A DNA stretch of 41,804 bases from a bacterium (lineage in GTDB: Bacteria; Myxococcota_A; Bradymonadia; UBA7976; UBA1532): contig JAUHXL010000008.1 in assembly GCA_030426945.1 (NCBI GenBank), forward strand, positions 1-41,804, written 5' to 3'. The position numbers and the translations under genes are program-made. Positions 37,161-41,248 of the stretch are shown in pieces. Below the pieces are notes generated by a model, which was not told where the DNA came from, made no database searches, and worked only from the letters and a program-made list of their open reading frames with translations. Position 1 is the stretch's first letter. Each line of letters opens with the position of its first letter.

Positions 37161-38207
37161 TCACTCGCGCCAGAGCATCTTCCAGGGGTGCCGCTTGATG
37201 TCGCGCAGCATCTCCTTGAGGTCGTCGTACAGCTCCTGATCCACCAGCAGCTGGCCCACGGTGCCGCGGCCCGATCCCAGATCCGCCAGCAGGGCGCTCA
37301 CGTCGCGCGTGATGGCGCGGGCGCCGCCGGTGACGTGGGGCAGGTCGGCCAGGGCCTCGTCGATCGCCGGGCCGTTGCGCGCCAGCAGCGCTTGAACGTC
37401 GTTCAGTGATGCGTCGGCGCGGGCCAACGTGGCCTCGAGGGAGCGGGTCAGCGGATCGGCGCGGCGCGCGATCACGCCGCTGGTGCGCTTCACGTCGTCG
37501 ACGATGGCCGCGAGCTGCGCGCCGTCGCCGACCGCCGTCCGCACCGCGCCCATCACCGCGCGCAGGTCGTCCGACGTGGCGGCCAGGTTCTCGGTGATGC
37601 GGTCCAGCCGCGCGCGGTTGTCGGCGACGTAGCTGTCCAGGTTCTTGGTCAGCCGGGTGAGGCTCTGCACCAGCCCGCCGATGTCCAGGTCGCCGTCGGC
37701 GCCCAGCGCGGCCTCGACCTGCGACAGGATGCCGTCGACGCGGGTGAACAGCACGTCGATGCGCGCGGGATCCCGGCCCCGGATGGTGGCGCCGTCCTCC
37801 CAGGCCGGGGCCGCCGCGGTGCCGGGCACGATCTCGAGGTACTTCTCACCCAGCACGCCCTGCGTCGTGATGATGAACTGGCTGTCCTGCCGCACCGACT
37901 CGGCCATCTTGGCGTCGACGTGGATGGTCAGCCGGACGTTGATCGGGGCGTCCTCGCCCGCGCGCGGGGCGCTGCGGCGCGCCTCGCGCCCGGCGAGGAA
38001 CTCCACGGTCTCCACCCGCCCGGCGCGGACGCCGGCGATCTTGACCGGCGCGCCGGTGAGGATCGAGCCGCTGTCGGCGAACTCGAGGTGCAGCGTCACC
38101 TGCGGCCCCACCGAGAAGCTGCCCAGCAGCACCACGAAGCCGACCAGCAGCGTCACCGCCACCAGGATCAGGGCGCCGACCTTCGTCTTGAGGGCGATGT
38201 CGGACAT
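37161..38207 (-). CDS. mlaD: MCE-family (MlaD-like) lipid-transport substrate-binding protein
   Basis: 348 aa; KTKVGALILVAVTLLVGFVVLLG TM; FADSGSILTGAPVKIAGVRAGRVETVEF MCE domain; long C-terminal helical region. Confidence 0.92.
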   Translation of the reverse strand: MSDIALKTKVGALILVAVTLLVGFVVLLGSFSVGPQVTLHLEFADSGSILTGAPVKIAGVRAGRVETVEFLAGREARRSAPRAGEDAPINVRLTIHVDAKMAESVRQDSQFIITTQGVLGEKYLEIVPGTAAAPAWEDGATIRGRDPARIDVLFTRVDGILSQVEAALGADGDLDIGGLVQSLTRLTKNLDSYVADNRARLDRITENLAATSDDLRAVMGAVRTAVGDGAQLAAIVDDVKRTSGVIARRADPLTRSLEATLARADASLNDVQALLARNGPAIDEALADLPHVTGGARAITRDVSALLADLGSGRGTVGQLLVDQELYDDLKEMLRDIKRHPWKMLWRE

Positions 38208-38228
38208 GGACGAGGGCGGCGCTCCTTC

Positions 38229-38972
38229 TCAGATGTCCATGGGCCCGTCGGGCAGACCGTTGACGAACTGTCGCACGACCGGGTCGGCGCTGTCCCGAAA
38301 GGCCTGGGGCGGTCCGTCGAGCAGCACGCGCCCCTGATACAACATGACCACCCGGTCCGCGACGCCGAAGATGCTGGCCAGGTCGTGCGAGACGACGATG
38401 CTGGTCACGCTCGTCTCGTCGGCCAGGCGCCGGATGAGGCGATCGACGTGCCGCGCGCTGATCGGGTCGAGGCCCGTCGTGGGCTCGTCGAAGACCACGT
38501 ACTCGGGCTCCATGGTCAGCGCGCGCGCGATGGCCACGCGCTTGCGCAGACCGTCGCCGATGTCGGCCGGCCGCCGGTCGGCGTAGCGCTCCATGTGCAC
38601 CAGCTGCAGCTTCGACCGCGCCGCCTCGAGGCTGGCCGCGTGCGACAGCCCCTGGTGCTTGCGCAGGGGCAGCGCGACGTTCTCGAGCAGGGTCATGCTG
38701 TCGAACAGCGTGCTGTGCTGCAGCACCATGGTGCAGCGCTTGCGCAGGGGGAAGAAGTCGCGCTCGCTGAAGCCGGCGACGTCCTGGCCCTCGAACAGGA
38801 TCTGCCCCGCGTCGGGCGCGAGCAGGCCCAGCAGGTGCTTGACGAGCACGCTCTTGCCCGCGCCGCTCTTGCCGATGATGAACAGCACCTCGCCCCGCGC
38901 CACGTCGATCGACACGCCGTCGAGCACCCGCTTGGGGCCGAACGCCTTGTGCACGTCGATGAAGCGGATCAC
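38229..38972 (-). CDS. MlaF-like ABC ATPase 1 (non-consensus signature motif)
   Basis: GTG 38972, 247 aa; Walker [10 protein letters not shown]-loop [10 protein letters not shown], signature [17 protein letters not shown], Walker [14 protein letters not shown]-loop VVSHD. Confidence 0.92.
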
Positions 38973-38985
38973 CTCGGGGACTCCA

Positions 38986-39753
38986 TCAGGTACGCAGCAC
39001 GAAGGCCGCGCCGCCAATCACGAAATCGAGCACGATCACCGCGAGCGAGGCGTTCACGACCGCGCGCGTCGTCGCCTGCCCGACGCCCTCGCTGCCCCCG
39101 CGCGCCGACAGCCCGGCGGCGCCCGCGATGATCGGGATCACCGCGCCGTAGGTCAGCGCCTTCAGCAGGCCCTCGAAGACGTCGCCCGTCCGCACGAGGT
39201 CGAAGTTCGCGTAGGTGGCCGGGTTCACCTGGAAGGCGCCGTAGGACACGGCCATGCCGGCGACGAAGCTCGCGGTGACGCCCAGCACCGCCAGCGCCGG
39301 CAGCATCAGGATGCAGGCGACGAAGCGCGGCTTGACCAGGTAGTCCACCGGCGGCGCGCCCGACATGCGCAGGGCGTCGACCTGCTCGGTGACCACCATG
39401 CTGCCCACCTCGGCGGCGATGCCGGTGCCCACGCGCGTCGCGACCATCAGCCCGGTCACCGTGGGCCCGAACAGCCGCAGCACCAGCGGCATCGTCTGCG
39501 CGCCCACCAGCGAAGCGTCGCCGAACAGGCGCAGCGCCTGGAAGCCCGTCTGCAGGTTCATGATGGCGCCCAGGAAGCCGAGCGTGAGCAGCACGAACAA
39601 CACGCTGCGGTTGCCCACCTCGAACGCCTGACGCCAGACCGCCGCCCGATCCAGCGGGGCGCGCGCCAGGTAGTACACCGTGCGACCCCCGACGGTGAGC
39701 GCGAAGCGGGCGTCGCGGATCGCGTGCCCCAGCAGATCGAGCAGCGCCCTCAT
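38986..39753 (-). CDS. MlaE-like permease 1
   Basis: 255 aa; [46 protein letters not shown]. Confidence 0.93.
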
Positions 39754-40520
39754 CGCAGCAGGTGCGTGATGAAGTAGTCGAGCACGAAGATGCCGACCGC
39801 CGACGCGACCACGCAGGCGTTGACCGCGCGGCCCACGCCGGGCGCGCCGCCGCGCACGGACAGCCCGAAGCCGCAGCTCACGAGACCCACGGCCACCCCG
39901 AACGAGAAAGCCTTGGCGAGTCCGTTGAGGAAGTCCTCCAACTTCACGTACTCGATGAAGCTGTTCCAGAAGACGTAGGGGTCGACGCCGATCAGCACGT
40001 CGGCGGTCACCATGCCCCCGATGAGCGCGAAGACGTCCCCCACGACGTTCAGCAGCGTCATCATCACGGTCATCGCGACCAGCCGCGGCATCACCAGGTA
40101 CTCGATGGGATCGATGGCCAGCACGCGCAGGGCGTCGACCTGCTCGGTGACGGTCATCGTGCCCAGCTCGGCGGTGTTGTGGGCGCCGACGCGCCCGCTG
40201 AACATCAGCCCGACCAGCAGGGGCCCGACCTCGCGGAACACGCTGTAGCCGAAGCCCCAGCCCATGACCTCGTAGGCCCGGTACTTCACGACGTACTCGC
40301 CCACCTGCAGCACCGCGATGGCCCCCGCGAACCAGGCCGTCACGACGATGATCGGCAGCGAGCGGACGCCCACGGCGTGCAGCGTGCGCCAGGTCTCGCG
40401 GCCGTCGCCGCGCAAGCGCACGCCGGCCCGCGCGACGGCCGCGGTGAAGAGCGCCAGCTCGCCCACGACGTCGGCGATGTCGAGGAAGCGCCCGCCCAGA
40501 CGCGCGGCGAGGCCCCTCAC
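39750..40520 (-). CDS. MlaE-like permease 2
   Basis: GTG 40520, 256 aa; [46 protein letters not shown]; 4-nt overlap with permease 1. Confidence 0.93.
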   Translation of the reverse strand: MRGLAARLGGRFLDIADVVGELALFTAAVARAGVRLRGDGRETWRTLHAVGVRSLPIIVVTAWFAGAIAVLQVGEYVVKYRAYEVMGWGFGYSVFREVGPLLVGLMFSGRVGAHNTAELGTMTVTEQVDALRVLAIDPIEYLVMPRLVAMTVMMTLLNVVGDVFALIGGMVTADVLIGVDPYVFWNSFIEYVKLEDFLNGLAKAFSFGVAVGLVSCGFGLSVRGGAPGVGRAVNACVVASAVGIFVLDYFITHLLR

Positions 40521-41248
40521 GGCGTGACCTCGGGGTGCAGGAAGGCGCGCACGAGGGGATCGGCGCTGGCCTCGGCCTCCGCGCAGGTGCCCTCGAACAC
40601 CCGCCGCCCGCGGTCGAGCACCGCCAGGCGATCGCACAGGGGCAGCAGGCTGGGCACGTCGTGGCTGACGATCACCGCCGTCGCCGCGCGCTCCACCTGC
40701 ATCGCCTTCAGCAGCGCGAAGATGCGGTTGGTCGTCACCGGATCCAGCCCGGCGGTGGGGTCGTCGCAGAGCAGGATGGGCGGATCGTGGATCGTCGCGC
40801 GGGCCAGGCACACCCGCTTCTTCATGCCGCCCGACAGCTCCGCCGGCAGGCGATCCTCGATGCCGGGCAGGTGCACCTGCGCCAGCCGCTTCGTGACCCG
40901 CGCCGTGATCTCGTCCGCCGACGCCGCGCGGCGCTGCCGAAGGGGGAACGCGATGTTCTCGCCGACGGTCAGGTAGTCGAACAGGGCGTAGTTCTGGAAG
41001 ATCATGCCGATGCGATCGCGCACGGGCATCAGCGCCGTCTCGTCGAGGGCGCTGACCTCGTCGTCGTCGACGAACACCTGCCCGGCGTCCGGCCGCAGCA
41101 GACCGCAAACCAGCTTCAGCACCAGGCTCTTGCCCGCGCCCCCCTGCCCCACCAGGCCCAGCGTCGCGCCGGTGGGTACGGTGAGCGAGACGTCGTCGAG
41201 CACGGTGGCGCCCTCGAAGCGCTTGGTCACGCCGCAGAGGCGGATCAT
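40517..41248 (-). CDS. MlaF-like ABC ATPase 2 (Asp in place of the Walker B catalytic Glu)
   Basis: 243 aa; Walker A GQGGAGKS, Q-loop MIFQNYALFD, signature ELSGGMKKRVCLARA, Walker B ILLCDDPTAGLD, H-loop IVSHD; 4-nt overlap with permease 2. Confidence 0.93.
   Translation of the reverse strand: MIRLCGVTKRFEGATVLDDVSLTVPTGATLGLVGQGGAGKSLVLKLVCGLLRPDAGQVFVDDDEVSALDETALMPVRDRIGMIFQNYALFDYLTVGENIAFPLRQRRAASADEITARVTKRLAQVHLPGIEDRLPAELSGGMKKRVCLARATIHDPPILLCDDPTAGLDPVTTNRIFALLKAMQVERAATAVIVSHDVPSLLPLCDRLAVLDRGRRVFEGTCAEAEASADPLVRAFLHPEVTP

Follow-up and report, generated by a model that had tools for sequence, protein, structure and literature searches.

An operon that encodes two different ATPases, two different permeases and a single MCE protein, and in which neither ATPase has all of its catalytic motifs, raises the question of how the resulting transporter could be powered. 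The window analysed here, by which we mean the whole stretch of DNA, spans one complete contig (41,804 bp) from a draft genome and carries such an operon on its minus strand. Its closest relatives with a name are Myxococcota MAGs. Judging from sequence, the product of the operon is very probably a lipid ABC transporter of the MCE/Mla type (type VIII) in which motor and permease are both heterodimers.

Layout and family assignment of the operon

The five co-directional genes were found in the order given by a preliminary description of this DNA, A2 > E2 > E1 > A1 > MCE, and encode two MlaF-type ATPases (A1 and A2), two MlaE permeases (E1 and E2) and one MCE protein (Table 1). That description also listed several 4-nt overlaps among them. 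This holds for A2/E2 (GTGA) and E2/E1 (ATGA), whereas E1 and A1 are separated by 13 nt and A1 and the MCE gene by 21 nt. A further 4-nt overlap, absent from the earlier list, joins the TPR gene to A2 (41248-41245). The open frame of A1 extends upstream of its GTG start to a TTG at 39017, and the operon ends 6 nt away from a convergent gene. The two ATPases are 37% identical, as are the two permeases over 214 residues. Elsewhere in the window, at 33157-34992 (+), a 611-residue protein has the look of a TolB-type propeller by eye and gave no Pfam family match at 0.001.

Table 1. Genes of the window operon and the truncated gene upstream of it
Feature	Position	Strand	Remarks
TPR protein, C-terminal part only (contig end cuts gene)	41245..41802	-	TPR_6 2.3e-12; probable extra component
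A2, MlaF-like ATPase	40517..41248	-	LSGG present; Asp replaces catalytic Glu (DDP); His kept
E2, MlaE-type permease, GTG start	39750..40520	-	PF02405 1.2e-68
E1, second MlaE-type permease	38986..39753	-	TIGR00056 3.8e-51
A1, MlaF-like ATPase, GTG start	38229..38972	-	DEP and His kept; IGDG replaces LSGG signature
MCE protein	37161..38207	-	PF02470 8.9e-16; TM helix, one MCE domain, long helical C-terminal part

Both permeases match PF02405 (MlaE); their TIGR00056 scores of 210.5 and 174.2 bits fall just below and below the 212.2-bit cut-off, respectively. The MCE protein scores above the 25.1-bit cut-off of PF02470 (MlaD/MCE domain). Both ATPases have MlaF structures among their best PDB matches and, at 168 and 188 bits, lie well under the MlaF equivalog cut-off of 441 bits. 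The motifs quoted in the preliminary description were recovered exactly. A2 has the signature ELSGGMKKRV and a Walker B motif, ILLCDDPTAGLD, in which DDP stands in place of DEP; A1 has a normal DEP Walker B motif and the altered signature, and the switch-loop His (SHD) is kept in both. Neither protein thus combines LSGG with the catalytic Glu as a canonical MlaF-type ATPase does, each being without one of the two. The losses are complementary and, as far as sequence can tell, would fall on one composite site only, the hallmark of degenerate-site ABC transporters.

Motif losses in the two ATPases across Myxococcota

Pairs of tandem permeases (E2-E1) with an ATPase on each side occur in the class to which the window belongs and throughout the phylum. 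The sample comprised 379 genomes, mostly drafts, and the loci read were a selection, chiefly from genomes in which A1 scored high. The ATPases were classed by similarity to the window proteins; one A2 (L409, genome G119), which the score-ratio rule had put among the controls, was reassigned by its position and SSD motif. The signature is lost in all 124 A1 proteins (123 genomes, 26 families), every one of which keeps the Glu and the His. The replacements are of GDG type in 99, SDG in 11, GPS, GPG or APS in 11, and GEG, GAG and SSG in one each; LSGG does not occur. The 115 A2 proteins show the converse pattern, with an xSGG signature in 114 and LAGG in one. Among them the catalytic Glu is lost in 71 and the switch His in 47, with four lacking both and one, from genome G054, lacking neither, so that 114/115 are without Glu, His or both. 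An independent check, in which genes were chosen by position alone, gave a lost signature downstream of E1 in 82/82 cases and a lost Glu or His upstream of E2 in 85/86. Conventional single-permease ATPases of the same phylum, used as controls, have xSGG, DEP and His intact in 24/24. Chance is ruled out by these complementary tables.

Co-variation of the IGDG and DDP changes across orthologous operons had been set beforehand as a test that could overturn the heterodimer idea. The idea withstood it: among the 100 genomes with both ATPases, the A1 signature is absent in all and the A2 Glu or His is lost in all except one. The pattern is in fact stronger than predicted, because many lineages break the same composite site via a different residue, with His to Ser in place of Glu to Asp in A2, and SDG, GPS or others in place of GDG in A1. 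Asp replaces Glu in A2 of the window's class (families f1, f3, f5, f6 and f7) and of f12, f16, f37, f38, f41 and f44. Ser replaces His, with Glu kept, in f14, f18, f25, f28, f30, f32, f42, f46, f47, f57 and f59, and both residues are lost in f36, f43 and one f18 genome. A1 and A2 each form one clade, with support of 100 and 99 (FastTree, local support only). In trees built without the motif columns, the Glu state calls for at least four changes and the His state for at least two. The genomes share ancestry and sequence counts are not counts of independent events; even so, the convergence of different residues on one site across lineages is informative. The lesions are also present where the genes are unlinked: in genome G340, A1 (7.47 Mb) and A2 (6.95 Mb) lie around 0.5 Mb apart on the same contig and both carry them.

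The single exception, A2 of genome G054 (L132:8154-8873, +), is the only A2 with both Glu (DEP, codon GAA) and His intact. Its D-loop reads GRD instead of GLD, the A1 of the same genome is still FGDG, and the genome has a listed contamination of 7%; the exception could reflect either reversion or a problem of assembly. That genome, and the draft MAG status of many others, could be taken to suggest that the motif changes as a whole reflect gene decay, sequencing or assembly error. The probability of this is negligible: dozens of genera, single-contig genomes (G020, G041, G047 and G200) among them, retain the changed motifs and have all the others intact, and such conservation across families rules out decay or sequencing error.

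Three loci with other arrangements were noted. Genome G334 has two complete copies of the two-ATPase operon (L374 and L375), in each of which A1 reads SDG and A2 reads SSD. Genome G033 has a divergent set, in which an A1-like ATPase with LGVG and a GLI D-loop adjoins an MCE gene (L222) and a pair of tandem permeases is on another contig (L163). Genome G060 (L343) has a tandem permease pair and, after it, just one ATPase with LSGG, DEP and His all intact, which is nearer to the layout seen in mycobacteria.

A putative heterodimeric motor

In an ABC dimer the Walker A/B motifs and His that enclose each ATP come from one subunit and the signature from its partner (PMC12038006). All of the A1 lesions, and all of the A2 lesions except the single LAGG, fall on one composite site, leaving the other complete. 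We infer an A1/A2 heterodimer because the lesions share this one site, and either homodimer would have two defective sites. A1 and A2 would form a head-to-tail dimer of nucleotide-binding domains (NBDs) on E1/E2, and a hexamer of the MCE protein would cap the assembly. Site 1, comprising the Walker A/B motifs, Glu and His of A1 and the LSGG of A2, would be a full catalytic site; site 2, comprising the A2 Walker A/B motifs without Glu or His and the altered A1 signature, would be degenerate. If the analogy to the degenerate sites of TM287/288 and MsRv1273c/72c holds, ATP bound at site 2 would keep the NBDs in contact. Meanwhile, site 1 would hydrolyse one ATP per cycle and so drive the presumed cargo, lipid, between the cavity of E1/E2 and the channel of the MCE protein. 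Points against this model are the G054 exception and the fact that Asp can in principle support slow hydrolysis.

Since two permeases and two ATPases are encoded, each ATPase might instead homodimerise on its own permease, giving two transporters that share or compete for the MCE ring. The known MCE ATPases MlaF (PMC7367683) and MceG, the latter on a YrbE1A/B heterodimer (PMC9882608), are indeed homodimers. We regard two homodimeric transporters as very improbable: with A1 alone both sites would lack a signature, and with A2 alone both would lack Glu or His, leaving no consensus site in more than 110 cases, and there is usually one MCE gene per operon. A different pairing is suggested by the conventional LSGG/DEP ATPase that the window's genome also encodes beside a single MlaE permease (L157). 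A1 could pair with this MlaF, and A2 would be a regulatory or inactive subunit. However, the A1 and A2 genes lie on either side of one permease pair and are found together even when unlinked, and pairing of A1 with a conventional MlaF gives no reason for the matching lesions in A2; we thus consider it very doubtful. The preliminary description's proposal of one consensus and one degenerate ATP site on a heterodimeric permease is supported by the complementary lesions, the physical heterodimer being the likely arrangement.

The proposed motor resembles those of the heterodimeric exporters TM287/288 and MsRv1273c/72c in having one consensus and one degenerate site, with Glu-to-Asp and His replacements on one NBD and a deviant signature on its partner (PMC12038006, PMC5216877). 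The degenerate site of MsRv1273c comprises Asp497, Gln528 and the partner's signature (PMC12038006), and that of TM287/288 a Walker B Asp and a deviant signature (PMC5216877); the kinds of lesion found in A1 and A2 match these. In both, the degenerate site is thought to stop the NBDs separating fully (PMC12038006, PMC5216877). These are, however, exporters of another membrane fold with fused TMD-NBD chains, whereas the window encodes MlaE permeases, separate NBDs and an MCE protein.

The E. coli MlaFEDB complex (type VIII; PDB 6xbd), a top or near-top PDB match of both A1 and A2, likewise has an MlaE-fold permease, an MCE protein and an MlaF-like ATPase. It differs in having homodimeric MlaF and MlaE and an MlaB subunit, where the window operon has two ATPases and two permeases and no room for an MlaB gene. 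The C-terminal tail of E. coli MlaF comprises residues 247-269 (PMC7367683) and both window ATPases stop before most of it, the alignment of A1 reaching MlaF residue 252 of 269 and that of A2 residue 245. Mycobacterial Mce1 (MceG, YrbE1A/B, Mce1A-F) shares the two different permeases and an MCE domain with a long helical part; unlike the window system it has an MceG homodimer with a C-terminal extension of around 120 residues and six Mce proteins (PMC9882608), compared with two ATPases of complementary degeneracy and one MCE protein (usually one MCE gene in orthologous operons). The minimal MlaEFD of Veillonella parvula also works without MlaA, MlaB or MlaC beside its genes and has a long MlaD; it has, however, a single MlaE and MlaF, and an outer-membrane barrel on MlaD, none being apparent in the window's MCE protein (PMC10665443).

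Associated components, distribution and significance

The permeases are also asymmetric. The Glu corresponding to E98 of MlaE is kept in 115/118 E2 proteins and 44/108 E1 proteins, with Asp in another 39 E1; the window E1 has Leu. In E. coli MlaE, E98 is part of a buried charged cluster and single alanine mutants had no phenotype (PMC7790496), and we therefore note the asymmetry without interpreting it. The C-terminus of the MCE protein is conserved; the structure predicted for the protein is of low confidence (mean pLDDT 49). Several f32/f25 operons and one f59 operon have a second MCE-like stretch after the first. In 50 genomes a co-directional TPR gene precedes A2, and in around 30 of these A2 starts inside the TPR stop codon. 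Several orthologues have a lipoprotein-type N-terminus by eye, and a loose pattern matched 38/50. The TPR protein, a probable lipoprotein, is likely a partner of the transporter system.

A single-copy fused protein with two MlaF-like NBDs was found in 17 of the genomes searched, all of the window's class (L207:7516-9192 (+) and L436-L452). Its N half has LSGG and its C half IS[NAS]G or a close variant; in genomes G034 and G041 the N half is also DDP, which places both departures on one composite site. Neither a permease gene nor an MCE gene was found near it. The same genomes have lone MlaE permeases (L156 (G000:C70), L159, L160, L161, L164, L170, L171 and L174), some followed by a weak MCE match, and no MlaF-like ATPase was found near these within the stretch read. 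It is a guess that the fused ATPase drives the lone permeases from elsewhere in the genome. We tentatively entertain, at somewhat below even chances, the idea that motor asymmetry in MCE transporters evolved at least twice in Myxococcota, once as the A1/A2 heterodimer on E1/E2 and once as the fused tandem ATPase, maybe driving lone MlaE. If true, an asymmetric lipid transporter using one ATP per cycle would be usual in the phylum.

Sampling outside Myxococcota covered Desulfobacterota, Spirochaetota and Pseudomonadota. Matches were found in 297 Desulfobacterota and 198 Spirochaetota genomes, and the best eight of each all have xSGG, DEP and His; 399 Pseudomonadota genomes gave no match at 1e-92, a result bound to that threshold. 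Our literature search, which took in few subscription papers or bioRxiv preprints, turned up no account of an MCE motor in which two ATPases share a degenerate site. Within the scope of that search, such a motor is new for Mla/Mce transporters. Searches for canonical signatures would misread ATPases of the A1 and A2 types.

Some carriers (family f6) are probably predatory Bradymonabacteria, which are without full fatty-acid synthesis (PMC7460792), and this makes the question of cargo concrete; an import direction would fit their incomplete pathway. A degenerate site broken by varied residues across a whole phylum amounts to a natural mutational series on what degenerate sites do. The series also bears on how many ATP molecules, one or two, an MCE lipid transporter has to hydrolyse in each cycle.
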